Of a stretch of DNA of 36,076 nucleotides, positions 9,293 to 35,881 are shown one piece after another; the stretch's first letter is position 1, and every line of letters starts with the position of its first letter. The stretch covers positions 1-36,076 of the forward strand of contig JAIQFY010000054.1 in NCBI GenBank assembly GCA_020072965.1. Reading direction: 5' to 3'. The position numbers and the translations under genes were made by a program. The notes beneath the pieces were generated by a model that saw only the letters and a program-made list of their open reading frames with translations, did not search any database and was not told where the DNA came from. Origin of the DNA: Terriglobia bacterium. Lineage in GTDB: Bacteria > Acidobacteriota > Terriglobia > JAIQFV01.

Positions 9293-10768
9293 CTATGTCC
9301 GCAGAGAGCAGCTCGGAATATACCCAGGGTCCTGATACTCGAATAGCTGAATTTCGCCAACCGAGGTCAACTGCTGTCCGAGAAACACGGCAAGAGCAAA
9401 AGGACCGTAGAAGAAAATGCGGGTCTTGAGAAACTGGTGCGTCTTCAGGATCTGGCCAAGGTGATCGCGCATCGCTCGCGTAAAAGCGCAGGCATCCCCT
9501 GCCCCTCCAATTGACTGCGCTCCTTGGGATGGTGGCGACATGAATACGAATATCTTCGGTCGGTTGCACGTGCCTTCCACATAGCGCATGACATCCCCGC
9601 GACCGTCGCCTTTGATGTTCAATCCAAGAACCAGATCCGCACCCCCGAGGCTGCCGTCGATAACCTCAACCCGCAGATCATATGGGCTGGTCGCCGGAGC
9701 ATCGGATCTCCAGTCGTCCTTCGAGGGTGGCTGCGGTATCTCGAATACCCAGCCGCCCACTGCAGGGAAAACGGCTCCCATCGCGATGCCGGTCGATAAA
9801 GCACATTTCCCCCGAAAGCGAATTACGCGCTCCTTTCGTTCCGCAACAATCCTCTTCTGAAGAGAACTTAACTCTGACAGTAGCTCAGCATTCCACACCT
9901 CCTGCGACGGTACACGGCGCGAAGCGCGGTCAAAATGCGAAGACCAGTCCAAAGCATAGTCTGCTGGCGGATCAAAAGATTCCTTTGTCCAGTTCTGAAC
10001 CCAGAGCGTGATGCTCTTCTTGCCAATTAGGCCCGTCGCTACTGCGGATCGCAAGATTCCCTCGATCGCAGCTCGTTCAAGAACGACGCCCTTGCTTGCC
10101 GTAATCGCCCTCATTATTTCGGAAAATGCCGGCTGCACCATAGACCGGAGTTTTCCGGAATACTCTGGGTGGCTCAGCAGGCGCGCGATGAATAGTTCCA
10201 CAGCGCGGTCATCGTGACACAAATCCCCATGGCCTACGTCGATGAAGACCTTCGAGTGAATGAAGTCTATGAGGTCGTCGAGGCTCCTCTTGCGTAACCG
10301 TTCGTCGAGGTCCTGCTTTGTGGAGGCTAGGGCCCCAGGCGCATCGTCATAAAACGGCGTGGCTCCCCGCAACCGGGCGAGGCCCGTCTCAATGGGTCGA
10401 AGCGTTGCGGACAGAGACGGGGACGCTAGTGTGAACCGCTCATAGACTTCCGGAAAATCGGAATCAAGGCGCTGGAAATGCTCCACTACAGATTTGAATT
10501 CGGCGGGCGCAACCTCGTGGTCTTTAACTTGAATGTGAATCCGGGACGATTTGCCTTCGCTTGTGAAGCGAATGTCGATGTCGCCGGTGCCCTCAAAGAA
10601 TAGTTGATGAAACGAACCCTCCAGCAGCCATAGCGGCAAATGACATGCTGCATAGCGCGTCTGGAAATCGTAACCTTTTCCTCCTGTGATTCCTCCTATG
10701 GCCTCTGGGGAGAGCAGGGAACCACGGCTGGCACCTGATTTGCGTGAACGCTCTTCGGAATCGGTCAT
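9293..10768 (-). CDS. cap4: Cap4-like effector: DUF4297 nuclease fused to SAVED domain
   Basis: 491 residues from the ATG at 10766-10768, which follows the CD-NTase stop by 7 bp; the frame open to 10969 would overlap the CD-NTase and lacks homology-like sequence. The N-terminus has GGKGYDFQTRYA, then acidic D63/D65 and Q80-V-K82 (HIQVKDH), matching the PD-(D/E)xK-type DUF4297 double-strand DNA nuclease of Cap4. The C-terminus (about 290-491) has the SAVED pattern: FFYGPFALAVFLGQQL, GEIQLFEY and YIPSCSL. In known Cap4 proteins, the SAVED domain binds a cyclic oligonucleotide made by the neighbouring CD-NTase, which activates non-specific DNA cutting. That role is very likely here. Confidence 0.85.
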   Translation of the reverse strand: MTDSEERSRKSGASRGSLLSPEAIGGITGGKGYDFQTRYAACHLPLWLLEGSFHQLFFEGTGDIDIRFTSEGKSSRIHIQVKDHEVAPAEFKSVVEHFQRLDSDFPEVYERFTLASPSLSATLRPIETGLARLRGATPFYDDAPGALASTKQDLDERLRKRSLDDLIDFIHSKVFIDVGHGDLCHDDRAVELFIARLLSHPEYSGKLRSMVQPAFSEIMRAITASKGVVLERAAIEGILRSAVATGLIGKKSITLWVQNWTKESFDPPADYALDWSSHFDRASRRVPSQEVWNAELLSELSSLQKRIVAERKERVIRFRGKCALSTGIAMGAVFPAVGGWVFEIPQPPSKDDWRSDAPATSPYDLRVEVIDGSLGGADLVLGLNIKGDGRGDVMRYVEGTCNRPKIFVFMSPPSQGAQSIGGAGDACAFTRAMRDHLGQILKTHQFLKTRIFFYGPFALAVFLGQQLTSVGEIQLFEYQDPGYIPSCSLRT

Positions 10769-10775
10769 TGTCGCC

Positions 10776-11648
10776 TCATTGGCCGAATTGCGAACCAAAT
10801 AGTTGACGCCACAGCCTACGGCTCGCTGTCTCGTCGGAGCTACTGAATGCGTTGCGGGACGTGGTAGCAGCGGATTTGACCTGCACCATGAAATCGTTGA
10901 ACTCCTTCGCTGGCCAGCGCTTTGCCACGTTGACTGATGAATATCCCGGATCGGAAATACTGGGCACACTGTTGGTATTGCGATAATTGCCGTAGCTGTG
11001 CTCGATGCCTTCGAACACGTTTACGATTGCATTTGCATGCGAGGACGGGCTCCCGATAGTCTGATGAATGAGCGTCTCAAGAATGTACGACTTGAGCTGA
11101 CAGGATTCGGTCGGTAACCTGTCCCGCCAGGACTTGAGCAGCTTCACCGTTTGCACGAAATACCCGTTGGTGGTTTTGTTTTTGTTGAGTCCGGCAGCAA
11201 TCTGGCCTTTCGGATGAGTCTGCACCCATTGATGGGCATCCCTGTCGGGTATCCACAATGGCCCGTCCTCGGCCGATACTGGTGTAGCCGGAACGATGTC
11301 CAGCCAAACGTCCTTAGCAGCATTAGCGCCCACCGATCGGCCTTGAGGCCTCGGCTCCTTGTAATACCTAGCGAGCACGCTTTGAATCCAAGCCAGAACA
11401 ACCTCAGGAATCGTGATCATCTGGTCGATGTCCAATATACAGATGACGTCAACATCGTTGATATCGTTGATCGCTGTGTGCCGGGCGTAGGAACCCGAAA
11501 GAAACGTATCCTTGTGCGCATCTTTCGATTCGCTATCGGTTCGCAATTGGTCGCGAACTTTTTCATGCGCAGCCTTGGCGGCTGCCACATCTTCGTCGCC
11601 CGGCTGAAGCGAAGTGAGAAACGTACTGAAATCGCCTGCCAGTTCCAT
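10776..11648 (-). CDS. CD-NTase (cGAS/DncV-like nucleotidyltransferase), CBASS signal synthase
   Basis: 290 residues, slightly short for the family. The polymerase-beta-type signature is complete: GSYARHTAINDINDVDVI, with G52-S53 and catalytic D65 and D67, then the third acidic residue D117 in VWLDIVPA. These enzymes make cyclic di- or trinucleotides when a phage infects. It starts 6 bp after the E1 gene and is followed 7 bp later by the SAVED effector, so it is the centre of the operon. The C-terminus reads GSQFGQ. In type II CBASS the very C-terminus of the CD-NTase is what the E1/E2 machinery conjugates, and here the glycine is followed by one Gln. Product nucleotide cannot be deduced. Confidence 0.9.
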   Translation of the reverse strand: MELAGDFSTFLTSLQPGDEDVAAAKAAHEKVRDQLRTDSESKDAHKDTFLSGSYARHTAINDINDVDVICILDIDQMITIPEVVLAWIQSVLARYYKEPRPQGRSVGANAAKDVWLDIVPATPVSAEDGPLWIPDRDAHQWVQTHPKGQIAAGLNKNKTTNGYFVQTVKLLKSWRDRLPTESCQLKSYILETLIHQTIGSPSSHANAIVNVFEGIEHSYGNYRNTNSVPSISDPGYSSVNVAKRWPAKEFNDFMVQVKSAATTSRNAFSSSDETASRRLWRQLFGSQFGQ

Positions 11649-11654
11649 GATGCG

Positions 11655-13124
11655 TTAGTCCTTTGTGGGTGAAGACGGGAGCGTCCCAAGGGAGGCTAAG
11701 TCGAGACCATATGAGGCAGCGATAGTCGAGATGAAATCGCCACAGACGGGGCAGGCTGCATCGCGCTCGAAGTAGATCCCATACCATCGATTAATTGTCA
11801 TTTCGTCACTGCTCTCGCTCAAAGGCGGCCAGTTGGCGTATTGAGTACCGGGTTCAGGCCTGTTTAGCCAAAGATACCAAGGTGCGTCGAAATCCCTGTT
11901 CAGAACACTTAGCGAAGTAGGCTTGTCTGCCAGAAGCTCCAACAACGCCAACTTTGTGAGCATGTTTGCGATCGGCAAGACATCCAATGACAAACCTGGT
12001 TCAACGGCTACTGGTTGATCAGAGTAGGCGATATCGTTGGCGTCAGAAGCGGAGGAGACCTCGACATCTGAAGCTTCCTCCGGCATCGCAGCCACAAAGC
12101 ACTCGTGGCAAGGTGATCGTTTTGGGCGCACCCGGAGAATCTGCCCGCCATAAGCCCGTCGAAAGGCACCGCCGTAAACCGCGACAACATTAGCCTCGAC
12201 ACACAGCTGGTTAACCAGCAGCTTACTCGGGCGATTATCTGTGCCGCAGATCACCACACTGGCTTGGGCAATAAGTTGCTTGAGAGTCTCTCTGTTTTCA
12301 TAAGTCAACTTAATGGGATACGTTAGCACTTGGGCATCCGGGTTCTTTTCGTGAATTAGATCGCGCACGACATTCACTTTGAAGCGGCCAACCTGTGAAA
12401 TGCCGCCAGGATGACGAGCCACATTTCCGACGGATAGCCTGTCCTGATCAACAAGTGTGAAACGGCCCACGCCGCACTTTGCTAGTTCAATTGCTGCATG
12501 TGCACCGCCGGTTCCGAGACCAATACAAAGTACGGACTTGTCGCTAAGGACGGTGGTTTCGAGAATACATGAGCGGCGAGTCGCGAGCTCCGGTTGTACA
12601 TCGGCGAAGACTGCGGTAACCGCTTCGTCAGCGTTGTTGACCGTTCGCCATGCTACGGCACGATGGGCAGAGCCGTCCGGTGCAGTGAACGTTGACGGAT
12701 CAGATCTGGAATCCTCGACCGGCGAAAGGAGAACACATAATTGAGTTCCGTCCGGCGGCGTCGTTCCATGGCCTAGCAATACTGCGCCCTGAATGATTGA
12801 CGACGATGCCTGTGCGCCGAGACAGCACTGCGTGAATGCATCACCTTCATCCCAAAAGTTAAAGAGCGATGAGACCATGCGATCGCGCGTAATCTGATGC
12901 CATTGTTCTCGGAACCACCGGCTTGACAAGGTGACCACGGCAAACATATCTGCGTCGTCAGCCGTGATGTTCAGCGCCCGCGGCGTCTGAGCACCCTCGG
13001 CGACGGCAACAATTGTGCGCCTGGTTTTGTCATAGACGAGCTTGGTGCGACCTGGCTTGCGCTCAGCAATTGCCTTCATTGCATCTCGGATCATTTGCTG
13101 CTGTTGTGGGTCATTTGTACTCAC
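11655..13124 (-). CDS. ThiF/E1-like adenylating enzyme (E1 half of a Cap2-type system)
   Basis: 489 residues. The Rossmann nucleotide-binding motif GLGTGG is at 202-207 in VLCIGLGTGGAHAAIELAK, followed by the ThiF/MoeB pattern VDQDRLSVGNVARH and the strand-end VICGTDNRPSK. Two CxxC pairs, C339/C342 (CHEC) and C458/C461 (CPVC), could hold the structural zinc of E1 enzymes. The first 190 residues form a separate domain that I do not recognise. No E2 domain is attached; that is encoded by the preceding gene, whose stop overlaps this start by 4 bp. Expected role is to adenylate a protein C-terminus (the CD-NTase by analogy with Cap2) and hand it to the E2. Confidence 0.87.
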   Translation of the reverse strand: MSTNDPQQQQMIRDAMKAIAERKPGRTKLVYDKTRRTIVAVAEGAQTPRALNITADDADMFAVVTLSSRWFREQWHQITRDRMVSSLFNFWDEGDAFTQCCLGAQASSSIIQGAVLLGHGTTPPDGTQLCVLLSPVEDSRSDPSTFTAPDGSAHRAVAWRTVNNADEAVTAVFADVQPELATRRSCILETTVLSDKSVLCIGLGTGGAHAAIELAKCGVGRFTLVDQDRLSVGNVARHPGGISQVGRFKVNVVRDLIHEKNPDAQVLTYPIKLTYENRETLKQLIAQASVVICGTDNRPSKLLVNQLCVEANVVAVYGGAFRRAYGGQILRVRPKRSPCHECFVAAMPEEASDVEVSSASDANDIAYSDQPVAVEPGLSLDVLPIANMLTKLALLELLADKPTSLSVLNRDFDAPWYLWLNRPEPGTQYANWPPLSESSDEMTINRWYGIYFERDAACPVCGDFISTIAASYGLDLASLGTLPSSPTKD

Positions 13125-13585
13125 AATGTTTCTCCCATTGTTCGAACGAATTCTGCCAGCGGGCGACCTGTGTCAATGTGTTGCTCGTAAGCCTCAATCC
13201 AGATAAGGCCCTTTAGAAATACTTTCTGAAGAAGAATGCTTGAATGCCATCGGGCATCTCGCCAGTGGCAAACCTGGACCATCCCATTTGAGGACGGAGC
13301 TAGGGTGTGCATCTGATGCGAAACTCCCAATCTTGAAAGCGGGGTGCCATCCGCCATCAGGAGCGGGAGCGGCTCGGTGATGTACATAGGCGGACGTTGG
13401 TACGGGAACCCGGACGGAATGGGAATGTGGAGGCGGTACCGATATCCGGCGTTGGAAAGGGTCACGCCAGACGCAAAATATGTATCCGCCGCCCTGTCTT
13501 GGTAGACGCTGAATTGCGTGAACCCTTCTCTCTGAAGGATTTCGTGCTCCAGCAGGAGTCTCTGACGCTGCTCAGCTGTCCACAT
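13121..13585 (-). CDS. Stand-alone E2-like (UBC-fold) conjugating protein
   Basis: 154 residues. The core YRLHIPIPSGFPYQRPPMYI (residues 50-69, in short) is the beta-meander and proline-rich 'P-x-x-Y/F-P-x-x-x-P' segment of E2 ubiquitin-conjugating folds. It is followed by H92 (SHQMHTL) and a single well-placed Cys106 in VQVCHW, the probable thioester cysteine, and then a helical tail. In most type II CBASS loci this domain is fused to E1 as Cap2; here it is separate. It overlaps the upstream HTH-JAB gene by 14 bp and the downstream E1 by 4 bp, indicating translational coupling. Confidence 0.82.
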   Translation of the reverse strand: MWTAEQRQRLLLEHEILQREGFTQFSVYQDRAADTYFASGVTLSNAGYRYRLHIPIPSGFPYQRPPMYITEPLPLLMADGTPLSRLGVSHQMHTLAPSSNGMVQVCHWRDARWHSSILLQKVFLKGLIWIEAYEQHIDTGRPLAEFVRTMGETL

Positions 13586-14846
13586 GGCTGCTCCGCTTCT
13601 CGTTCGCCTTCGCGGCTCGAAAGATTTCGAGGATGCCCGGTATGTCTGGCGCTACCAAGCCGCCTGGCGTCTTAATGAGCTCAGCCGTACCAGCGTCACG
13701 ATTGAGGCGGTGTACCTCCAGGACTGTCATCGGCCATGCGGTACCGAGAGCGAATGCAAGGTAGTTCTGTTCCTCAAGGTTTGCCACGACGACACAGCCG
13801 AATCCGGTCGTGTGATGCTCCACAGCACTCCCGCTTTCATTTTGCAAAGCTTCGGCAAGCTGAGAAAGCGTTCTTTCTCGTGTTGTTGCATCAACGTCGG
13901 ATGCGGGCTCCAAATTCGGCGGTGCAGCATCAGATCCGATCCGAATTCGCTGCAATGAGATCTTTTCCCACGCGAAGAACTCCTGCTCGGGGAGTACTCG
14001 TCTCGCCAGCAGCGCTTGCCGAACCGGACTCAAACCTGGCGATACTTTGACACGCAACGGGAGGGGGCCACTGTTTTGGCTCGAAAGGTCGTAAAGCCAG
14101 GGATGAATCCTGATCGTAGGCTCACCACGGGTGTCTTCCAAGGTGACGATGATCTCCGCCATTCCAGTGAATTGGTTGCGACCTGCAATGCTGAGAATGC
14201 GTTTTCGGTCGCCACCGCTAGGGGCGGACAGGCCTAGTCTGTGGTGAGAGTGCCAGTCACCGAAATACCGCAAAGCCCAATCGGACGCGAGAGTTTCACT
14301 GAACTGCCGGAGGTAATCAACATCCAGACGAAAGTGTGCGTTATTCCGCTGCGCATTTGGTCCAGCCTTTGTCGCGAGAAGGATAGTTGGAATATCATGC
14401 CAACGGCCGAACAGATCGCCTCCCGTCTCGATGGACCACGCCGAGGCTTCTGCTGCGATCGCACGCAACTCCGATTCCCATGTGACCAGAAAGCCGCGCG
14501 GTATTTTGGGCGGTGACCGCCGGTTGAGAAATTTGGTTAGGCGTTGGATCAGCATATCGGACTCGGGCGAAGCACGAAGTGAACGGAGGAGAGTAATGAG
14601 GTGTGGGCGTTCTTCGATCCACTCCCTCAGGTTGGGAGACAGACGGTTATCTGCGGCCTCAAGTTCTTCCGGTGGAATCTCAAGGACCGATGATATGCGC
14701 TGTCTTAAGTCCGCGCTTGGAAGACGTCGGTTCGCTTCGATGTCAGCAACGTACGCGGGCGTTACGCCGATCTCCCCCCCTAGTCGGCGAAGCGACCAGT
14801 TACGGGCTAAACGCCTGTTCTTGATGAATTCTCCCAGCTCGGCCAT
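13572..14846 (-). CDS. XRE-type HTH fused to JAB/JAMM isopeptidase (Cap3-like)
   Basis: 424 residues from the ATG at 14844-14846. The N-terminus (residues 1-60) is an XRE/Cro helix-turn-helix: LGEFIKNRRLARNWSLRRL, GVTPAYVADIEANRR. Residues about 120-260 form a JAB/MPN metalloprotease with the full JAMM set: E140 in SIETGGDLFG, H199-S-H201 in GDWHSHHRLG, then S210 and D213. The last ~100 residues are an extra alpha/beta domain that I do not recognise. Cap3 in type II CBASS removes the conjugate made by Cap2; the HTH fusion suggests the same protein also represses or senses for the operon. I reject the ATG at 14882 because it lies inside the -35 box of the promoter and adds only a hydrophobic 12-residue tail. 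Confidence 0.87.
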   Translation of the reverse strand: MAELGEFIKNRRLARNWSLRRLGGEIGVTPAYVADIEANRRLPSADLRQRISSVLEIPPEELEAADNRLSPNLREWIEERPHLITLLRSLRASPESDMLIQRLTKFLNRRSPPKIPRGFLVTWESELRAIAAEASAWSIETGGDLFGRWHDIPTILLATKAGPNAQRNNAHFRLDVDYLRQFSETLASDWALRYFGDWHSHHRLGLSAPSGGDRKRILSIAGRNQFTGMAEIIVTLEDTRGEPTIRIHPWLYDLSSQNSGPLPLRVKVSPGLSPVRQALLARRVLPEQEFFAWEKISLQRIRIGSDAAPPNLEPASDVDATTRERTLSQLAEALQNESGSAVEHHTTGFGCVVVANLEEQNYLAFALGTAWPMTVLEVHRLNRDAGTAELIKTPGGLVAPDIPGILEIFRAAKANEKRSSHVDS

Positions 14847-14853
14847 ACAGCTG

Positions 14854-14882
14854 ATTATGATAATATATGCATATATTGTCAA
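14854..14882 (-). promoter_or_regulatory. Sigma70-type promoter of the defence operon with palindromic operator
   Basis: Read on the minus strand: TTGACA (14877-14882), a 17-bp spacer, CATAAT (14854-14859). The perfect 16-bp palindrome AATATATGCATATATT (14862-14877) fills the spacer and is a natural operator for the XRE domain encoded immediately downstream. Only 7 bp separate the -10 box from the ATG of the HTH-JAB gene, so the transcript should start at or very near the A of the ATG: a leaderless mRNA. Confidence 0.7.
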
Positions 14883-18713: not shown

Positions 18714-19271
18714 ATGAATGATCACATGAGTTTAGGCATGGTTCTCATCCTTAATTATGCTATCGGTTGGTTCAAAACCTATAGTGAATTCTATCACGAT
18801 TGGTGTGGAATCCGTTTACTTCCCAGAGTCCTTGCCCTCCAACTTCCCTCTATGATTATAATTGTTGCTATATACGTAGACATCATTCACTTCGCCCAAA
18901 TTACGTTCTTACGGCATTATTTCTTCTTGATTTCCTTGGTGGCAGCCCAGGCAGCGGATTTAATCACCAGGCATTTGTTGCGTAGTCAATCTCACGGGAG
19001 ATCATCGAAGGTGAATACAAACTATACATTCGCTGTAAGTGTTCAAACAGCAATCGCAATGAAAAAAATACAGATTGTTGATTGTCTCTCCCAAAGACCC
19101 AACCCCAGAGACATTTTAATTGATGCCCTGAAAGCCTCTGGTATTTCGCCCCGAAAGGTAGACCCCCTTATCTGCAAAATCAATACTCCTCCGACTAGAG
19201 AGCAGATGTTTGACGTTGTAAATACACTGGGTGTGGCCATGGCAAAAACCCTCGTAAAAAGTTGTAAATGA
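18714..19271 (+). CDS. Small membrane protein of unknown function
   Basis: 185 residues. GAGGAGGG lies upstream of the ATG; an ATG nine bases earlier runs into a stop after three codons. Two or three hydrophobic segments are visible (about 5-17, LPSMIIIVAIYVDIIHFA near 43-60, and FFLISLVAAQAADLI near 70-84), followed by a soluble C-terminal domain of about 100 residues with KKIQIVDCLSQRPNPRDILIDAL. No known family was recognised. It is the first gene of an AT-richer co-directional block. Confidence 0.6.
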   Translation: MNDHMSLGMVLILNYAIGWFKTYSEFYHDWCGIRLLPRVLALQLPSMIIIVAIYVDIIHFAQITFLRHYFFLISLVAAQAADLITRHLLRSQSHGRSSKVNTNYTFAVSVQTAIAMKKIQIVDCLSQRPNPRDILIDALKASGISPRKVDPLICKINTPPTREQMFDVVNTLGVAMAKTLVKSCK

Positions 19272-19318
19272 ATTAAGGCTGATCATGGTAAGAGCCCTGG
19301 TACCAAAAGGAGTCCAAA

Positions 19319-20986
19319 GTGAATACAGACTCAAATCTAACTTTTAGGCAAGTGCGAAACGTATCTGGCTTCAGTCGGCCAATGTCCGTTACTGACGCTT
19401 TTATTTATAATTTTCTTGCCATGGGCATTATCTTTCCTTGGACATATTTATGGGGCCCGGCTAGTTTTCCTGGCAGTAACATAGAACTGGGGATATGGTT
19501 GACCCTGCTTGCTCAAATTCCAATTTCCTTGGCATACTGCTTCCTCGCAACAGTATTGCCCGTAAATGGAGGAGATTACATTTATCAAACGCGGGCATTT
19601 GGAAAGTGGGGTTACATTTTTGTTTTAAGCGGTTTCGTAATCTGGATTTTACAGTGGGTAGCCCTGTCAGGATGGCTATTTGCCACCCTAGGAGTTGCTC
19701 CTTGGCTGTTGTCCGTGGGAGTAATTTCAAACAATCAGACATTGTGCGCATGGGGTTTGGCGGTTCAAACTCCAGGCGGAGTATTTGCAATATCCATCGC
19801 TCTTGCGCTTGTTACTACGCTTTTCTTGATTCGCGGGCTTCGTCTTTACGTTCGAGCGCAGCGTTTTCTTTTCGTTGCAACGATAACTTCAGTGCTAGTT
19901 GTAATTTATGTGTTTATTTCTAAACAAGCTACTTTTTCCACCGACCTAAATGCCTTCGTAAACACCTTAACGAATCTTTCGGGCTTGAAAACTTCCCCCT
20001 TACTTTCAAGAGACTTCTTTACGTTTATTCAAAGCGATGTTACCAAGGCGGGGTTTAATATATCTCCTACATTTAGCTTTTTGGCAACACTAGGGATAAT
20101 TCCAATTGCATGGACCAGCCTCCAGTGGGCTACCTATAGTGTGGAACAGAACACCGAGATTTCCGAGGCGGACCATTTCTGGAAACAATTGTACATTCTT
20201 ATGGGCTCAGCTGTTTTGGTCACTATATTTCTCTGGCTAATTGCTCATTTTGAACACATAGCTACAACAAAGAGTTTTATGGTTGCTGCTTCAGCAGCAT
20301 ACTGGCTGCAGATCGGCTCACCCGATACAGTATCTACTGTTAAGACAGTGGTGCAGCCATTTCCAAATATCTTGGCGATGGCGGCTTGCAAGAGCCTTGT
20401 CCTTACAAGCCTCATTGCGTTAGGATTTCTCGCAAATGCCTTTCAAGTGGCATGCAATTGCTTCATAGGAGCAACTCGGATTCTTGTGGCTATGGGAACT
20501 GATGGATTTCACAGACCTTTGCATCTTGAAAAAGTTAATCCAGTCTGGCATGCTCCCCTTAGGGCGCATTGGTTTTATTTCTTTGCCAGCATACCATTTA
20601 TTGTTGCGTATAATTTCCTTCCCAATTGGGTTACATATTCTCTTGGCGTGACATTTGCTTGCGGATATGTGTTTACAGTCTCCTCTTTGGCGGCGACTCG
20701 AATCCCTAGCAAGCTACGCTCGGCATGGATTACATCTGATATCCATAACTTTAAACCTTGGATCATTAAAACGGTAGGATATGTTGGATTCGGATCTGGT
20801 GCCACAATGGTTCTATCCTATTTGATATTTCCGCAATTAGGAATTACGGGGACAGTACCTTATTTGATAGTTTTTGGAATCGGGGTTTTTGCATACGCTG
20901 TTTATGTTATTTCGAAGGCAAGGTCCCCATTGATTGAAAAAACGATGGAGCAAGTTCCAGACGAGGTCGACGATTTCTACCGATAA
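19319..20986 (+). CDS. APC-superfamily amino-acid permease-like transporter
   Basis: 555 residues from a GTG with AAAAGGAG upstream. About twelve membrane segments are visible. The first part, MSVTDAFIYNFLAMGIIFPWTYLW, then PVNGGDYIYQTRAFGKWGYIFVLSGF, has the layout of amino acid-polyamine-organocation permeases (TM1 with an unwound glycine-rich stretch and a conserved P-x-x-GG(D/E)YIY motif in TM2-3). A long extracytoplasmic-type loop separates TM8 and TM9. Substrate unknown. Codon use is AT-richer than in surrounding regions. Confidence 0.85.
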   Translation: MNTDSNLTFRQVRNVSGFSRPMSVTDAFIYNFLAMGIIFPWTYLWGPASFPGSNIELGIWLTLLAQIPISLAYCFLATVLPVNGGDYIYQTRAFGKWGYIFVLSGFVIWILQWVALSGWLFATLGVAPWLLSVGVISNNQTLCAWGLAVQTPGGVFAISIALALVTTLFLIRGLRLYVRAQRFLFVATITSVLVVIYVFISKQATFSTDLNAFVNTLTNLSGLKTSPLLSRDFFTFIQSDVTKAGFNISPTFSFLATLGIIPIAWTSLQWATYSVEQNTEISEADHFWKQLYILMGSAVLVTIFLWLIAHFEHIATTKSFMVAASAAYWLQIGSPDTVSTVKTVVQPFPNILAMAACKSLVLTSLIALGFLANAFQVACNCFIGATRILVAMGTDGFHRPLHLEKVNPVWHAPLRAHWFYFFASIPFIVAYNFLPNWVTYSLGVTFACGYVFTVSSLAATRIPSKLRSAWITSDIHNFKPWIIKTVGYVGFGSGATMVLSYLIFPQLGITGTVPYLIVFGIGVFAYAVYVISKARSPLIEKTMEQVPDEVDDFYR

Positions 20987-20999
20987 CATTACTCTCCCG

Positions 21000-21707
21000 A
21001 TGAAACTTCAAAAGGAAGCGGTTTTGATCGTGGAGAATGCGCAAGCCCATAATATCGAAGTGCGGATTCTGGGCTCCGTTGCCATTGCTACCTATGTGGG
21101 CGCGGAGATTGCCAGCCGACCGTCACCGATAAAAGATATTGATCTGATTACGAGACATGAGGCAAGGACTGTTTTTCAAGGTATTCTCTATAATTCGGGG
21201 TGGAGGGTAGTTGAAGAGTTGTTGCTCCTTTCAGAGGACCGCGAAACATACCAGCATCCAGCGCAGGAATATACTGTAGATGTCTATTTCGATGTAGTAG
21301 ACGGCAATCATCCGATACACCTCAGGGATCGCTTGGGGCTCAGCTTCCCGGCAATATCGGCGACGGATCTTCTAATGACAAAACTTCAGAGGAGATTTCC
21401 GAGACAAACAGACACTTGGGATTGTTGTGCTCTATTTACCCATGGCATTGCCTCAATGGAAGTTGAGTATTTTGTCCGAGTGATGGGAAAGGATTGGGGA
21501 TTGTATACGACTGCATTGGACAATTTGAGAAATCTCATCGTCAGTTGCCCAAGGGCGCGCGAGGGCATCCGTCGGCTGATGGCAGATGCTGAACGAGGGG
21601 CGAAGAGTTGGCAGTGGTATGTTAGATCCGTGCTGGGTCGTAGGCTCAAATGGTGGAATGACGTTTTTGATACCAAAATCTCAGAAAAAAGGAGAGGGAG
21701 CCTGTGA
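21000..21707 (+). CDS. Nucleotidyltransferase-fold protein (AbiEii/MenA-like layout)
   Basis: 235 residues from the ATG at 21000, 14 bp after the permease stop; an upstream ATG at 20934 would overlap the permease by 53 bp and adds only basic residues. The NTase core is clear: RILGSVAIATYVG (G25-S26), KDIDLI with D46 and D48, and a third acidic site near EYTVDVYFD (D94). This is the minimal polymerase-beta fold found in antitoxin/toxin NTases and in uncharacterised nucleotidyltransferases. The C-terminal half is helical. Its stop overlaps the start of the phosphoesterase by 4 bp, so the two are translationally coupled. Confidence 0.7.
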   Translation: MKLQKEAVLIVENAQAHNIEVRILGSVAIATYVGAEIASRPSPIKDIDLITRHEARTVFQGILYNSGWRVVEELLLLSEDRETYQHPAQEYTVDVYFDVVDGNHPIHLRDRLGLSFPAISATDLLMTKLQRRFPRQTDTWDCCALFTHGIASMEVEYFVRVMGKDWGLYTTALDNLRNLIVSCPRAREGIRRLMADAERGAKSWQWYVRSVLGRRLKWWNDVFDTKISEKRRGSL

Positions 21708-22660
21708 GAATTTTGTTCATCACCGACCTGCACGGATCGACGCTTCTATTTAAGAAGGCTCTTCGTGTTGTAAACGATTTTGAAATTGATGCCATGATAC
21801 TGGGAGGAGATCTGAGTGGTAAGAGGCTACTGGCCATAGCCCCGAATTTGGATGGTGGTTATGTTACGTCTGAGGTTTATAAGAAGAAGGATGATACTGG
21901 GAAGGCAGTGGAAATGACGATTCCAAAGACAGTAGGCAAAGCAGAATTAGATAACTATTTGAAGCGATTGGAGGCTAAGGGTATCTACTGGCATATTGCA
22001 GAGCGCGGCGAAATCGAGGAGTTAAATGAGAATGTCAGGAAACTTCAAGTGTTGTCTCTCAAGAAGATTTACGACCGGCTTGTTGAGTGGGCAAAGCTCG
22101 CCTCAGAAAGACTACCGGAAGGAGTTAAATGCTTTTGGACAGGGGGCAATGATGACGACCAAGAAATGCTTGAGCAACTATCAATGGAGGATTTGGGACG
22201 CTTTTTGTATGTAGAAGATCAAGTAGTTGATCTATTTGGATACCAGGTCTTATCAATGGGATTTAGCAACAAGACTCCATTTAATACAGACCGAGAACTC
22301 GAAGAGGAAGAAATTTCCAACCGATTAATGCGGTTGGCAGACAATGCGAAGTCTACGGAAAAAATGATCCTTAATGTTCATGTTCCACCGTATAATTGTG
22401 GGACAATTGACTTGGTTACGAACTTGAAAGATCCTTCGCGGTCAGTCCATGTTGGAAGTAAAGGCGTTAGAACATTTATTGAAAACATTCAGCCCTTGGC
22501 AGACTTTGCTGGCCACGTGCATGAAGGCACGGGAACCGCAAAAATAGGGCGCACCCAAGTTTTTAATCCGGGCAGTGACTATTATGCTGGGATCCTTCAA
22601 GGCTATGTGGTAGATATCTTAGATTCACGAATTGGTGATTTTGCTCATTTTACGAGGTGA
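21704..22660 (+). CDS. Calcineurin-like metallophosphoesterase
   Basis: 318 residues from a GTG overlapping the previous stop (GTGA). The five metal-binding blocks are present in order: D8-x-H10 in FITDLHG, D36 in GGDLSG, N149-D in WTGGNDD, H226 in NVHVPP, and H271-x-H273 in AGHVHEG. An inserted, helical segment of about 90 residues lies between blocks II and III. Family members hydrolyse phosphodiesters or nucleotides. Coupled expression with an NTase suggests the pair makes and removes the same nucleotidyl modification or messenger; that is inference. Confidence 0.82.
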   Translation: MRILFITDLHGSTLLFKKALRVVNDFEIDAMILGGDLSGKRLLAIAPNLDGGYVTSEVYKKKDDTGKAVEMTIPKTVGKAELDNYLKRLEAKGIYWHIAERGEIEELNENVRKLQVLSLKKIYDRLVEWAKLASERLPEGVKCFWTGGNDDDQEMLEQLSMEDLGRFLYVEDQVVDLFGYQVLSMGFSNKTPFNTDRELEEEEISNRLMRLADNAKSTEKMILNVHVPPYNCGTIDLVTNLKDPSRSVHVGSKGVRTFIENIQPLADFAGHVHEGTGTAKIGRTQVFNPGSDYYAGILQGYVVDILDSRIGDFAHFTR

Positions 22661-22699
22661 CTCCTTGCGTGCCCAGGGTCACACATCTCAACAAATGTG

Positions 22700-23938
22700 A
22701 GGGTCAGATCGGGACTTTGGACAATTGCGAGTTCGCGAGTGCAAGGAGTTCCCTCAGTTCGGGATCTTTCTCTAATCGCGCTTCGAAGCGGAGGATGCCC
22801 TTGCTGACTGCCCAGGAGTCCAACGAGTCTGCCCGCTCTCCCAACTGTTTGAGGGTCATTCCGCCCGCCACGGCGGGGCGAGCCAAAAAAAAGACCATAT
22901 CTCGCCCCCAGTCCCCGTGCCGATTGGAGAATTGATCCCATCCTTCTCGCTTTATCCGCTCTACGACTTCCAGCACGGCACCAAACTCCAGTCTTCTTTT
23001 CAATTGCCGCAGACTCGATTGCTCGTGCTCACCCCGTGCGCTTTGAGTGCTAGGCTCCGGATGAAAGCCTCATCCCTCAGGGCCACTTGCGCCTGCAACT
23101 GATCCCACGGGGTCTGGATCAGGCCCTCCCGCGCGGCCGACTCTACATACTCGCGATATGCCTCTGGGCGCTGCTCCTCCTCTCCCCCCACCCAGCCCAG
23201 CACGGCCTGGGTGGTTTTAACCATGCTGGCGCCGGCTCCAGGCCAATGTAGGCGCGATAGGAACTCCACCGGTAGTTCCTCAAAAACTCAATGCGATCTT
23301 TCCACACCGCAGTCGCCAGTTCCCTCCCTACTCCCGCTTGATTTCGTCGCCGACTCTGTTTGTTCAATCCGAAGCGTTCGACGCGAATGGGGTTGAGGTG
23401 CACATAACGGCTCAGCTCCAACCCCCAGCGTCGCGGCTCCACCCGCCGCGGCGGGGCTTTGAATCGACCCTGCAGCAGGTGCCCCGCTCGTTGATATCGC
23501 CCATTGAACCAGCTGCTGTACCCACTATTCAACCATTGCCCGCCACGGCGGGCCCGGCTGAGGTTCGCTTCCAACGTTTCCAGCAACCCATGCCAATGAT
23601 TGTCCATGAGGGTGTAGACATGCAGCTGAAGGCGATACCGCTCCGTCATTTCGCTGAGCCGGCCCAGAAATTCGCGGCGGTCCTGGTCATCACGAAAAAT
23701 CGGCTGCCGCTCATTTCCTCTCGAAGTAATATGATACCATCCCCCTTCGCACTGAATGCCTAACGGCCTGACCATGGGAACTCCGCCTCGGGGGAAGGTT
23801 GGCTAGTAGTAGATCGTCTCCGTGCTGGGGGTACTGACGCATTATACCGCGTTCAAATGGGGGAGGATCAATAAATGCGCTTCGGATTGGTTGGGCGGTT
23901 GCCGATCCACGGAATGTCCAAAGTCCCGATCTGACCCT
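22700..23938 (-). mobile_element. Decayed RAYT element with 24-bp perfect terminal inverted repeats
   Basis: The sequence AGGGTCAGATCGGGACTT plus TGGACA at 22700-22723 is found perfectly inverted at 23915-23938. The ends enclose a broken Y1 transposase. Total length about 1.24 kb. The stop codon of the transposase lies inside the left terminus. Confidence 0.8.
22704..23775 (-). pseudogene. REP-associated Y1 transposase, frameshifted
   Basis: The reading starts at 23775 (MVRPLGIQCEGGWYHITSRG, with the HUH-like motif MDNHWHGLLE), shifts frame near 23230 to the frame covering 23000-23269, and shifts again near 23000 to the frame ending at 22704. Alignment by eye to the intact copy at 30727-31770 covers nearly the whole protein. 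Three places carry extra GC-rich palindromes of the CCCGCCRCGGCGGG type (near 22863, 23442 and 23539) that change length by 6, 6 and 9 bases compared with the intact copy. The two frameshifts make a functional product unlikely. Confidence 0.85.
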
Positions 23939-30499: not shown

Positions 30500-30608
30500 A
30501 GGCGCTGATCAAATAATGACAATCCACCCGCCGCGGCGCGAGCGTTTCCTTGAGGATTCCGTTCTGGGGTTCCCGCACTCTTTCGTTCGAGCGTAGTGTG
30601 AATTGCCC

Positions 30609-31780
30609 AGGGTCAGATCTATTTATTTTTCAATTGCAAACTCCAGCGACTTTGTAATGGTATAATCGCGTTGTAATTCCCCCCTAACATTCAGCATCTT
30701 TCAATCACCCCCGGACTGGAGTCACCATGGCTCGGCCTCTGCGTATCCAGTGGGAGGGGGCTTGGTACCATATCACCTCGCGCGGTCAGGAGCGAGGGGC
30801 CATCTTTTGGGATGATGAGGATCGACGCCGTTTCTTGGCGAGGCTGGCTCGGATGCCGGAACGCTTTCATACCCGTCTCCACAACTATGTGCTGATGGAC
30901 AACCATTACCATCTCGTGATGGAGACGGGGGAAGCGAATCTCAGCTTAGGCCTTCAGTGGCTCAATGGAGGTTACAGCCAAGCGTTCAACAAGCGCCATC
31001 ACCGCAGCGGGCATCTCTTGGAAGGGCGGTTCAAAGCGATTATCGTGGAGCCGCAGCGATGGGGGTTAGAGCTGAGCCGGTACGTGCATTTGAATCCCGT
31101 TCGCGTCGGGCGATTTGCGTTGGACAAAGGGACGCAGAGTCGGAACCGTCGAGGAACAGGCATCGAACACGGAAGCGACCTGTGGCAGGCCCGCATCAAT
31201 TACCTGAGGGAGTACCCGTGGAGCTCCTATCGCGCTTACATCGGGCTGGAGCCATCACCTGACTGGCTAGTGTGTGAGACCGTGTTGAGTTGGATGAGAG
31301 GATCGGAGGAAGACCCCCGCACGGCGTATCAGCGGTACGTGGAGGAAGCGGTTCGAGAGGGGATCCGTCAAACGCCCTGGGACCAACTGGCGGCCCAGGT
31401 AGTTTTGGGAAGCCAAGAGTTTGTGGACAGTCTTCGGGACCGGGTGCGCGGCAACGAGCGGGAACAGCGCGAGTTGCTCGGCCTCGCTCAGCGGCCTGAT
31501 TTCCTGCAGGTCATCGGCGCCGTGGAGCGATGGAAGGGGGAACGCTGGCAGGCGTTCGTGAATCGTCACGGGGACTGGGGGCGAGATCTGGCGCTGTCTT
31601 TGGCTTACGAGTATTGCGGACTGACGCTCCAACAACTCGGTGCCTTGGTCGACGGATTGGATTATGTGTCCGTCTCCGGAGCGGTCCGTCGCTTTCGACA
31701 ACGCATTGAGCGCGATCCGACCCTGGCACAGGCCTTCCAACAGATTAGCTGCCAATTGAAAAATAAATAGACCTGGCCCC
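30609..31780 (+). mobile_element. Intact-looking RAYT element with imperfect terminal inverted repeats
   Basis: The left end (30609-30637, AGGGTCAGATCTATTTA then TTTTTCAATTGC) and the right end (about 31752-31780) are inverted copies that differ at two positions over 27 bp. The right end contains the transposase stop codon. A conserved leader (TAATGGTATAAT ... GTAATT-poly(C) ... GACTGGAGTCACC) runs from the left end to the ATG and is shared with the remnant at 35727. Confidence 0.8.
30727..31770 (+). CDS. REP-associated tyrosine transposase (Y1_Tnp, RAYT)
   Basis: 347 residues. The Y1/HUH-like core is complete: MARPLRIQWEGAWYHITSRG, MDNHYHLVME with H60 and H62, and the catalytic Tyr83 in LNGGYSQAFNKRH, then LLEGRFKAI and ELSRYVHLNPVRV. 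After residue ~190 there is a DnaA-like or chromosomal replication-type helical C-terminal extension (VEEAVREGIRQTPWD, GDWGRDLALSLAYEYCGLTLQQLG) often seen with this branch. These enzymes cut and join single-stranded DNA at palindromic REP sequences. GGACTGGAGTCACC precedes the ATG. It is the only complete copy of at least four related sequences in the window. Confidence 0.9.
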   Translation: MARPLRIQWEGAWYHITSRGQERGAIFWDDEDRRRFLARLARMPERFHTRLHNYVLMDNHYHLVMETGEANLSLGLQWLNGGYSQAFNKRHHRSGHLLEGRFKAIIVEPQRWGLELSRYVHLNPVRVGRFALDKGTQSRNRRGTGIEHGSDLWQARINYLREYPWSSYRAYIGLEPSPDWLVCETVLSWMRGSEEDPRTAYQRYVEEAVREGIRQTPWDQLAAQVVLGSQEFVDSLRDRVRGNEREQRELLGLAQRPDFLQVIGAVERWKGERWQAFVNRHGDWGRDLALSLAYEYCGLTLQQLGALVDGLDYVSVSGAVRRFRQRIERDPTLAQAFQQISCQLKNK

Positions 31781-33634: not shown

Positions 33635-33750
33635 ATTGGATTATGCGTCCGTCTCCGGAGCGGCCCGTCGGGCGCGACAACGCATGGAGCGCTATCCGAC
33701 CCTGGCGCAGGCCTTCCAACAGATTAGCTGCCAATTGAGAATCGAATAGA
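33635..33750 (+). pseudogene. RAYT 3' remnant
   Basis: The plus-strand translation aligns with the end of the intact copy (DYVSVSGAVRRFRQRIERDP then TLAQAFQQISCQL), with several substitutions. It stops in the shared terminal repeat. All catalytic parts are missing. Confidence 0.75.
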
Positions 33751-33958
33751 TCTGTCCCTCAGTTCTTAAGTTAAGTGGACACCATTATCCAACCCGCAGA
33801 TAATTCTTCCATTTTCTCCTTGACTTCACTATGCTGCAAGGCACAAAATTTACGCGTTCGTAGGCGTACGAACAAATCTAAATACTAATAAGAGAATTCG
33901 GTTGCTGACGGCTACCGAAACTTCAATCTAGGACACCTTCAGTCCAAGGAGAATTGCC

Positions 33959-34201
33959 ATGAGTACACCTCGTGCCCTGCCGCAAGACCCAGTTCCACTG
34001 CGCCGCGTGAACATTTATGTAACCCGGGACGTCGCTTTCAACATTAAAAAGATGAATCAAATCACCGACAGCGTGTTGAAAAGACTTGGCTGTGATGGAT
34101 GTCATTCGGGCCGCGTTCTCGACTACCATATCATCGAGGATTTTGTTGTGAACCCACAGTCGCTCGAAATCACTGAACTTCCCGGCGGCGGCCGGTTCTG
34201 A
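33959..34201 (+). CDS. Putative RiPP precursor peptide (substrate of the MNIO enzyme)
   Basis: 80 residues after AAGGAGAA with ideal spacing. The N-terminal half (RRVNIYVTRDVAFNIKKMNQ) looks like a leader that forms a strand and a helix. The single cysteine pair lies in LKRLGCDGCHSGRVLDY, near residues 44-47, followed by an acidic C-terminal part ending in ITELPGGGRF. It is placed 9 bp before a DUF692/MNIO gene. MNIO enzymes use iron to oxidise cysteines (or C-terminal residues) of small peptides encoded beside them. That this is the substrate is inferred from size, cysteines and position; a small structural role is the alternative. Confidence 0.65.
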   Translation: MSTPRALPQDPVPLRRVNIYVTRDVAFNIKKMNQITDSVLKRLGCDGCHSGRVLDYHIIEDFVVNPQSLEITELPGGGRF

Positions 34202-34210
34202 GGCACTGCA

Positions 34211-35647
34211 ATGCGTCGGCTTGGAGTGGGTCTGGTTTACTTTTCGGAACTCGATCCGCTGTTCCGGGAGGATAATCCAGACCTCTCTGTACTTGAGCTC
34301 GAGCCGGAAACATTTTGGGAGAAGATCCACCCGGTCGGTTCGGTCGACGGCGAGACCTATTTGCCGAATGCACAAGCCATGGCGAAGATCTCGGCGCTGC
34401 CGCAGCACAAACTTGTCCACAGCGTCGGGTTTCCGGTGGGCGGATCCGTTCGCCATGACGGCCACTACGTCACGCCACTTGTCGATACCGTGACCGCGCT
34501 GGGCGCGCCTTGGGCGAGCGAACATCTCAGTTTCAACGCCATCCAAACTGGGAGCGGTGTCGAACAGATCGGTTTCCTGTTGCCGCCACGGCAGACGCAC
34601 GCAGGTGTCAACATGGCGGTCTGCAACATCCGGCGCCTTGCCTCGCAGTTACCTGTCCCATTTGCATTTGAAACCGGCGTCAACTATCTGCAACCTCGCA
34701 GTGACGAATTGAGCGATGGCAAATTTTTCTCGCTAATTGCGGAGGAGGCGGACTGCGGAATTCTCCTCGATCTCCACAACCTCTGGGTGAACGAGCGGAA
34801 TGGACGGCAGCCGGTAGACGAGGCAATTGCCGAGTTGCCGCTTGAACGCGTCTGGGAGATACACCTTGCTGGCGGCATGATGCTCGGGGATTACTACCTC
34901 GATTCGCATTCGGATGCCATTCCCGATCTGTTGTTAGATATCGCCGCCCAGGTGATTCCGCGATTGCCGAATCTAGGGGCGCTGATTTTCGAAATGCTTC
35001 CGGGCTATGTGCCGCAACTGGGACTTGACGGAGTCAAGCAACAGCTGACGCGGCTCAACGAGTTATGGCGCCTGAGGCCAGCGGAGTCCATTTACGTGCC
35101 ACGACGTCCGGTTGTTTCCGCAGATCGGCTGGACGGACCCTGCGATGTCGTCGAATGGGAACGAACCCTAGGAACGCTTGCCCTCGGGCACAGTCAAACT
35201 CCTGCCGATAGCAATCAACATGCGCTCGCTGGCGATACAGGCGTGAAGATTCTGCAGACTTTGGTCGGCGAATTTCGCGATGGACGAATTTCGCGCGCGA
35301 TGCGCTTCACGATAACCCTGATGCTGGCCCACTTGGGGCCTGCTGCCGTGCATGATCTGCTCAACGATTATCACATCAGTACATTTCCGGAAGACTTCGC
35401 GAGCGGCGAGGCCGATCGATTCGCGCAGTACCTGCGCGGTCGTCTGGCGACGCTGCCGCCGGTACCGTTTCTGGCCAACGTGCTGGACTTCGAGCATGCC
35501 CTCATTCGCGCGGCGCTTTACGGGGCGACGAGCCGCATCGAGTGGAGTGTTGATCCAGCCGAGCTCTTCAGCGCACTAGAAGCTGGACGGCTTCCCTCCT
35601 CTACGCGCACGACCCGTATCATTATGGACATCGTTCCGGAAGGATGA
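34211..35647 (+). CDS. MNIO (DUF692) multinuclear iron oxidase fused to a partner-like domain
   Basis: 478 residues; DUF692 enzymes are usually about 280. Residues 1-290 form the TIM barrel with the conserved metal and active-site positions: H70 (LVHSVGFP), E104-H105 (SEHLSFN), E154 (FETGVNYL), D187-x-H189-N190 (LDLHNLWVN), E217-x-H219 (WEIHLAGG), H233-x-D235 and E261. The remaining ~190 residues, with FAQYLRGRLATLPPVPFLANVLDFEHALIRAALYG in two pieces, resemble the helical and C-terminal parts of DUF2063/HvfC-type partner proteins that deliver the peptide to the enzyme, here fused. The gene starts 9 bp after the precursor; no strong ribosome binding site, so it is probably coupled. Confidence 0.82.
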   Translation: MRRLGVGLVYFSELDPLFREDNPDLSVLELEPETFWEKIHPVGSVDGETYLPNAQAMAKISALPQHKLVHSVGFPVGGSVRHDGHYVTPLVDTVTALGAPWASEHLSFNAIQTGSGVEQIGFLLPPRQTHAGVNMAVCNIRRLASQLPVPFAFETGVNYLQPRSDELSDGKFFSLIAEEADCGILLDLHNLWVNERNGRQPVDEAIAELPLERVWEIHLAGGMMLGDYYLDSHSDAIPDLLLDIAAQVIPRLPNLGALIFEMLPGYVPQLGLDGVKQQLTRLNELWRLRPAESIYVPRRPVVSADRLDGPCDVVEWERTLGTLALGHSQTPADSNQHALAGDTGVKILQTLVGEFRDGRISRAMRFTITLMLAHLGPAAVHDLLNDYHISTFPEDFASGEADRFAQYLRGRLATLPPVPFLANVLDFEHALIRAALYGATSRIEWSVDPAELFSALEAGRLPSSTRTTRIIMDIVPEG

Positions 35648-35726
35648 GCGGAGACCCCGTGTGACTGGAGGGGGCGGGTGTCGCAGGTTTCGCGCCACGG
35701 ATTCTACGGTAGGAAACAAAACGTCC

Positions 35727-35881
35727 AGGGTCAGATCGATTTATTCTTCAATTGCCGACGGCATGGGCCATGTAATGGTATAATGCAGTTGTAATTTCCC
35801 CCCAACATTCAGCATTTTTTGATCCCCCCGGACTGGAGTCACCATGGCTCGGCCACTGCGTATCCTGTGGGAGGGGACCTG
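35727..35881 (+). mobile_element. RAYT element 5' remnant, cut by an IS110-type element
   Basis: The left terminus (AGGGTCAGATCGATTTATT at 35727), the leader with GTAATGGTATAAT and GACTGGAGTCACC, and the first 12 codons of the transposase (MARPLRILWEGT from 35844) match the intact copy at 30609-30760. Homology stops at about 35881 (GGGACCTG), where unrelated sequence begins. Confidence 0.8.

Follow-up and report, generated by a model that had tools for sequence, protein, structure and literature searches.

MNIO enzymes normally need a separate helper protein. Toward one end of the window, the whole 36,076-nt stretch of DNA analyzed here, we found a 478-aa protein that, judged by its profile and its TglH/MbnB-type three-iron ligand set, is an MNIO (DUF692). 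Its C-terminal ~190 aa are identified by well-supported homology as a fused partner, related to partners that other loci encode separately. Directly upstream lies the gene for an 80-aa peptide. As read from the sequences, the pairing of peptide and enzyme is more than chance, since the same two-gene order occurs at six loci and the peptides are homologous to one another. What we rate as new is that an MNIO and its partner are naturally fused and accompanied by a peptide family of their own; we do not regard this as a new kind of system. The explanation we favor, with slightly more confidence than doubt, is a minimal cassette in which a one-chain MNIO-partner holoenzyme would oxidize the CxxCxSG loop of a peptide substrate, most likely at Cys48.

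Organization of the locus

The two forward-strand ORFs that an earlier note on this DNA had described were confirmed. The peptide gene, encoding a putative MNIO substrate, reads from its ATG as an 80-aa ORF (33959-34201), with AAGGAG, by its sequence a likely ribosome-binding site, on the same strand 7 nt ahead of the ATG (33946-33951). After a gap of 9 nt, the 478-aa enzyme ORF (34211-35647) divides into an MNIO TIM-barrel domain (residues 1-288, 34211-35074) and a partner-like fused domain (residues 289-478, 35075-35647). Contig and window are the same, and only 429 nt remain 3′ of the enzyme gene, which bounds the downstream view behind the earlier note's statement that the locus has no transporter. 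Two of the 27 window ORFs scanned with Pfam were transporter-like, an amino-acid-permease-like ORF (19319-20986) and a TauE/SafE ORF (350-1102), and these lie 13 and 33 kb off. No protease or exporter gene belonging to the unit was seen in the window or in eight related loci, which are cut at contig ends. Because no protease, exporter or signal peptide of the unit was seen, the product probably stays in the cytoplasm.

Neighboring ORFs of ≥90 aa, a length that most of the peptides fall below, were compared across the final 11 kb of the window and eight related loci, with less than 1 kb on one side in genome G692 and with G730 left out. Among the 60 best ORF pairs, enzyme and partner recurred across the group, and the long peptides of loci L004 and L005 matched one another. 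The other recurring pairs among these 60 lay kilobases away: a 311-332-aa ORF at two loci, two ORF families at three loci each (~30%), and two large ORFs of G334 resembling one in G376.

The MNIO barrel and its ligands

The enzyme matched Pfam PF05114 (DUF692) at E = 5.2e-36 (124.7 bits, cut-off 25). This match was confined to residues 67-259, leaving the last ~190 aa as an extension. It also aligned to the solved TglH chain 8hci (E = 6.9e-14; 1.6e-26 in a profile search). The ligands described for TglH in passages of PMC10880893 (H71, H107, E151, D184, N187, H216, D229, H231 and E258) all have counterparts in the window enzyme (H70, H105, E154, D187, N190, H218, D231, H233 and E261), the eight from H70 to H233 being placed by the 8hci alignment and E261 by the profile alignment, which reached 8hci residue 258. 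The assertion of the earlier note that all barrel ligands are present thus holds at nine of nine TglH positions, and these positions were identical in all 21 aligned enzymes of a wider group defined below. Among NCBIfam models, MNIO_BufB scored best (99 bits, cut-off 310), followed by ApyH (78 bits), HvfB (74 bits, cut-off 360) and MNIO_ChrH (46 bits, cut-off 600). AlphaFold single-sequence models had low confidence, with a mean pLDDT of 38 for the enzyme and 43.5 for the peptide.

The fused partner domain

The earlier note had likened the C-terminal extension to an MNIO partner, and profile comparisons bear this out. At split loci (L007, L010-L013, L035 and L037), the order is peptide, MNIO of ~300 aa, and a separate protein of ~205-235 aa. 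In hhalign, a profile built from four fused C-terminal regions matched the separate partners at 98.6% (E = 1.1e-15), compared with a maximum of 1.8% for 60 column-shuffled alignments and 0.2% for a reversed alignment. The fused-region profile matched the separate partners of L007 (2.7e-13) and L013 (3e-10), also those of L012 and L035, and that of L037 at 0.0026; the L010 and L011 partners, at 0.014 and 0.14, did not outscore the top decoys (0.0056 and 0.073). Searching in the opposite direction, from split partners to fused enzymes, recovered L004 (7.9e-15), L005, the window (1.1e-5) and L006 (0.012), with the best decoy at 0.41. By these comparisons, the fused domain is homologous to partners encoded separately after MNIO genes.

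We call the domain PME-type-2-like because it is weakly linked to the canonical DUF2063 family. The window domain had no Pfam match and fell below the cut-off for DUF2063 (PF09836). Against the full DUF2063 model, the L007 partner scored 5.2e-5 (23.9 bits, below the gathering score of 27.2); the L013 partner scored 0.16 against DUF2063, and a profile comparison of the fused domain with three canonical partners gave 26%. PME-type 2 partners are described without a DUF2063 signature in passages of PMC12452194. A profile search of solved structures in the PDB with the partner domain returned three matches only, all unrelated (E 0.5-1.5). We infer from the sequence that the domain comprises a DUF2063-like helical part and a short, partial RRE-like end. 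The window chain terminates soon after the DPAELFSALEAGRLP stretch, which makes a full RRE unlikely.

The upstream peptide and its linkage to MNIO genes

The peptide contains exactly two Cys, at residues 45 and 48 in GCDGCHSG, and so they stand mid-sequence, as the earlier note had said; the CDGCHSG motif spans residues 45-51 of 80 (34091-34111, forward strand), and the C-terminus is GGGRF. The peptide gave no Pfam match and no significant NCBIfam match, and a PHROGs search returned one match (0.006) to a family of unknown function. No hydrophobic N-terminus was seen by eye, and the peptide contains no EGKC motif. Among 13 peptide units searched with NCBIfam, two matched at 0.05 and 0.23, neither significantly.

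Each of the six enzymes in the fused clade described below has a homologous peptide gene directly 5′ of it, in the same order of peptide then enzyme. When a profile was built from any five of these six peptides, it retrieved the remaining one (2e-8 to 1.5e-25, the best among 1000 shuffles reaching 0.12), which upholds the link between peptide and fused MNIO genes drawn in the earlier note. The eight peptides of the split group with L078 were likewise mutually recovered, the weakest being L007 (2.9e-4). In the wider group, every one of the 21 enzymes is immediately preceded by a short ORF on the same strand, peptides in this group having been chosen by that position and partly by eye.

Between groups the picture was less uniform. 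In single-profile searches between fused-clade and split-group peptides, the window peptide scored 0.005 and most gave no match. Profile-profile comparison yielded 47% for fused versus split (81% when the two Cys-less peptides were left out) and 92.5% for fused versus the "other" group, with none of 100 shuffles as high in either case, and 6.4% for split versus other, where shuffles reached 5.8%. These values suggest homology between fused-clade and split-group peptides. We dropped the claim that all 21 peptides form one family with a decaying CxxC because homology between the groups is partly unproven.

We then considered the peptide across larger genome sets. Among 61 genomes, the own genome included, the peptide was present only in its own genome, which had one enzyme match and one peptide match. 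A 13-unit profile searched against 299 genomes of the class gave eight matches, seven of which (five of six genomes) adjoin an MNIO gene, the peptides of those five genomes being themselves part of the profile. The eighth, in G129 (E = 0.005), covers 15 of 74 positions in a long reading frame lying opposite a different type of ORF. In a set of 13 chosen genomes, at least four of which also belong to the set of 299, all 13 matches (11 genomes) lay directly upstream of an MNIO gene, only the G721 peptide being outside the profile. The alignment A3 profile at E 0.01 missed the Cys-less peptides and left two genomes matchless; the Cys-less peptides were located by position and then confirmed with fused-clade peptide profiles. 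The sole match in G663 (2.7e-4) was a multiheme cytochrome, as was the one confirmed hit of a contig pattern scan with the peptide, which lay away from MNIO genes. The earlier note had named peptide homologs without linkage to MNIO genes as the counter-evidence to look for, and the search for them turned up only cytochromes or the one weak 15-position match. No plasmid with the L035 peptide and no viral contig with the fused alignment was found, and a CxSG peptide was absent upstream at the Nonomuraea locus L033.

The cytochrome hits bear on a reading of CDGCH as a c-type heme site (CxxCH), with the peptide as a tiny cytochrome. The window peptide does contain CxxCH, but relatives, or peptides in the equivalent place, have Phe, Tyr, Lys, Leu, Thr or Arg instead of the His, and a hydrophobic export signal is absent by eye. 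We rejected the heme site because the His is not conserved in relatives, and put its probability at close to nil.

The sister MNIO groups L008, L016, L022, L009, L014, L015 and L036 have short upstream peptides and other partner proteins, most of the peptides carrying motifs such as GCTTCGLGG, GCRTCGLMG, GGCNCGLTG or GCDKCGR. It is these peptides that, in the profile comparisons given above, scored 92.5% with the fused clade and 6.4% with the split group.

Variation of the cysteine loop

All 13 units of alignment A3 share the C-x-S-G pattern, which is absent from L076 and L077. Within the fused clade, the window, L004 and L005 have CxxC (3/6). In L006 the motif is HxxC, with His at the first position and only the second motif Cys kept, and L076 and L077 have no motif Cys, the L076 peptide lacking Cys altogether and that of L077 having one at residue 7. 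Across the wider group, CxxC occurs in 16 of the 21 peptides (8/8 in the split group with L078, 3/6 in the fused clade and 5/7 in the rest), and 19 carry a Cys at the motif's second position, L014 and L016 having been placed by eye. The earlier note had suggested that the product could be a new cysteine-derived modification. The two clade peptides without a motif Cys, together with the His at the first position in L006, speak against this as a rule for the whole clade.

The peptide genes of L004 (1043-1480) and L005 (2881-3309, minus strand) consist of two tandem units, possibly a double substrate, the first unit carrying GCPNCFSG or GCPKCFSG and the second ACPCHSG (CxC).

The Cys-less peptides are true homologs (2.4e-9 and 1.1e-8, where the best of 4000 shuffles reached 1.3), and their enzymes retain all nine ligand positions. 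No CxxC peptide was found elsewhere in the L076 and L077 genomes (95% and 69% complete). Pairs without motif Cys but with all ligands imply that the target varies between lineages or is not Cys. We weighed a reading in which the enzyme does act on the peptide, though at a residue other than Cys, for example the Asp or Asn of a [DN]P dipeptide, and the CxxC loop serves as a metal or disulfide site absent from some lineages. The dipeptide (Asn65-Pro66 in the window peptide, 34151-34156, forward strand) is present in all six fused-clade peptides and six of seven in the "other" group, both Cys-less peptides included, with a per-peptide chance of 0.10-0.65 in shuffles. The flanks of the loop are conserved even in the Cys-less peptides, as a pN of 0.34 against a pS of 0.71 shows for the L076/L077 pair, whose synonymous sites are nearly saturated, and MNIOs acting on Asp, Asn and Phe are published (passages of PMC12636315 and PMC12452194). 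On the other side, [DN]P is absent from the later part of the peptide in all eight members of the split group with L078, where CxxC is present in eight of eight, and the dipeptide may be a turn or a recognition element. We consider this reading rather unlikely. A fuller version, which we hold to be unlikely, is a natural single-chain enzyme acting on a small, possibly folded cytoplasmic protein with no leader removal or export; since one lineage has a substrate without motif Cys and keeps the enzyme and the flanks, its reaction would not be Cys chemistry and might fall, for example, on [DN]P, in which case it would count as a new class of MNIO reaction.

Conserved flanks around a loop without Cys would also fit a peptide that is a small subunit or chaperone, the true substrate being encoded elsewhere. 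The order peptide-MNIO-partner is, however, the usual one of precursor, enzyme and partner in passages of PMC12452194, and we regard this alternative as very unlikely.

Distribution and origin of the fusion

The fused family is rare and patchy, as few full-length matches were obtained at any rank searched; each of these searches covered a sample of its group, and only part of the candidates were scored. In the class, 130 of 399 genomes had an MNIO match at 1e-15, and residues 3-465 were covered in four of them: the own genome (G000), G294, G241 and G214. Among 250 genomes of the G294 family, four had a full-length match at 1e-40 (G294, G214, G692 and G730), and in G721 the match extended over the barrel. 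Full-length enzymes were found in two of 62 genomes of G294's genus and in both genomes of G692's genus. In the phylum, 47 of 297 genomes matched at 1e-25, only the own genome at full length. Plasmid records matching the window enzyme numbered 274, and in no case did the match reach 80% coverage of the enzyme. For the L035 and L015 enzymes, 355 and 354 records matched, and five of eight inspected carry a DUF2282 or Cys-rich bufferin-like ORF near the MNIO, calls that rest on annotation or eye.

We built a tree from 38 of 69 MNIO domains, chosen by hand. Six fused enzymes, including that of the window, formed one clade (support 100/99) within a wider group of 21 enzymes (100/98). A seventh fusion, L078, grouped with six split enzymes (99/93), and L007 stood next to them (86/94). 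L078 is a 563-aa ORF in which the barrel is joined to a partner whose start, MSLLTFQ, is still inside; against three split partners, its partner half aligns at 33-36% across 186-198 aa. Judged from this tree, the fusion arose at least twice in the sampled group, with the caveat that the L078 fusion could be a sequencing error hiding a stop, since it comes from one incomplete assembly (76%). A partial match in G324 (L110, minus strand) was rejected as a fusion. It consists of an MNIO-like ORF, one in-frame stop and then a partner-like ORF, separate ORFs in frame with a single stop between them, which shows how close such pairs come to fusion. The MNIO-like ORF of L110 has unusual sequence near ligand positions (LLLDLPHIW, WIAPTQPT).

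Proposed reaction

In the explanation we favor, the 80-aa peptide would be the substrate and the 478-aa chain a complete holoenzyme, an iron-binding TIM barrel followed by the PME-type-2-like partner domain. The fused domain would hold the substrate and keep the iron cluster active, with the flanks of the peptide loop as the recognition part. The mid-sequence CxxCxSG loop would enter the barrel and be oxidized there by O2 and iron; Cys48, the most likely target, may bind iron through its thiolate. The product would be an intact modified mini-protein in the cytoplasm. Passages of PMC13419390 describe MNIO partners as binding the precursor, HvfC as needed for the active mixed-valent diiron state, and an engineered HvfB-HvfC chain without a linker as active, with a product yield above that of co-expressed HvfB and HvfC.

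Little is understood about the partner proteins of MNIO systems. According to passages of the same 2026 preprint (PMC13419390), HvfB and HvfC were fused by hand to obtain a stoichiometric, highly active enzyme. With natural fusions having apparently arisen at least twice, the window enzyme would be a ready-made single-chain holoenzyme for structural and spectroscopic work. The natural series of CxxC, single Cys and no Cys beside the same ligand set permits a direct test of Cys dependence.

Comparison with known MNIO systems

We compared the cassette with published systems as they are described in passages of the respective papers. In TglH-TglI (pearlin/3-thiaglutamate), the barrel shares the nine ligand positions with the window enzyme, and TglI, an N-terminal helical domain plus a C-terminal RRE needed for substrate binding, is separate, unlike the fused partner of the window (PMC10880893). 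The target of TglH is a C-terminal Cys appended to the peptide rather than encoded in its gene, whereas the window Cys lie mid-sequence; TglH-type excision was rejected because the Cys is not terminal. BufB-BufC and HvfB-HvfC (bufferins, oxazolins) combine an MNIO with a DUF2063-type partner, much as the window enzyme joins a barrel to a partner-like domain, and BufB was the best NCBIfam score, but the enzyme stayed below both the BufB and the HvfB cut-off. Their substrates carry Sec signals and EGKC or DUF2282 motifs (PMC12452194), which the window peptide is without, and we rejected bufferin membership on the scores and the lack of a Sec signal by eye. The HvfB-HvfC fusion is man-made (PMC13419390), whereas that of the window is natural.

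MovX resembles the window enzyme in architecture, with a fused C-terminal RRE/winged-helix and no separate partner needed (PMC13419390, PMC12452194). It acts on a C-terminal Asn, whereas the window peptide ends in GGGRF, and its built-in domain is described as RRE/wHTH and not as a PME-type-2 partner. PflD (MNIO-nitroreductase), from a RiPP cluster, is likewise a naturally occurring MNIO fusion (PMC12636437), joined to a second catalytic domain where the window enzyme is joined to a partner. The putative adjamnio-1, -2 and -7 precursors are, by their text description, like the window peptide in lacking a signal peptide and lying beside an MNIO; adjamnio-1 and -2 adjoin PME-type 2 genes, adjamnio-7 has a CxxC, as does the window peptide, and the passages of that paper mention no MNIO-PME fusion for adjamnio (PMC12452194).

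ChrH, DybH and MelH-MelHc have a C-terminal helical domain that is fused in most and separate in Cyanobacteriota (PMC12636315), a fused/split parallel likened by description. A ChrH-like reading would join both Cys of CxxCxxG in a macrocycle with hydantoin, a change of -4 Da without methylation. The spacing of CDGCHSG equals that of CPxCGxG, and L008 of the wider group has CTTCGLG. Yet the ChrH score was the lowest of the four given above and far short of its cut-off. The CPxCGxG motif stands at the peptide end, whereas that of the window is mid-sequence, with no Pro and with no Gly after the second Cys; moreover, L006 is without the first Cys and the second unit of L004 and L005 is CxC. A ChrH family search gave no match in 217 genomes, but 14 controls were equally silent. 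We judge this reading quite unlikely.

MNIOs with an extra domain are thus in print (MovX, ChrH and PflD; passages of PMC13419390, PMC12636315 and PMC12636437). This weakens the contrast that the earlier note drew between the fused enzyme and MNIOs working with a separate partner protein. In the titles, abstract beginnings and passages covered, no natural fusion of an MNIO to a PME accompanied by a peptide of this sort came up, and no paper joining MNIO with Acidobacteri- was found.

Surroundings of the cassette

The cassette is flanked by remnants of a REP-type transposase element, a whole copy of which lies at 30607-31779: a 3′-end remnant at 33635-33758 (88% identity) and a 5′-end remnant at 35725-35881 (81-93% identity). 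Lying between these two truncated element copies, the cassette could alternatively be a decaying passenger, unexpressed or non-functional, and the one other genome of the genus searched (G001) gave no enzyme or peptide match. Against decay, both frames are open, all ligands are kept, and the enzyme shares 42-43% whole-length identity with L004 and L005 of another family; we consider decay highly improbable.

Several other features of the window were observed. Just upstream on the opposite strand is a HAF-repeat protein (TIGR02913; 32213-33154, minus strand), with no known link to the cassette. The region 19000-23000 is low in GC (43-48% versus 54% overall) and contains the amino-acid-permease-like ORF, an NTP_transf_5 nucleotidyltransferase (just below cut-off) and a metallophosphoesterase. 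A CBASS-like defense locus at 9293-13124 (minus strand) encodes a Cap4 nuclease with a SAVED sensor, a SMODS nucleotidyltransferase and a ThiF-type protein, and is followed by an HTH protein (13572-14882).
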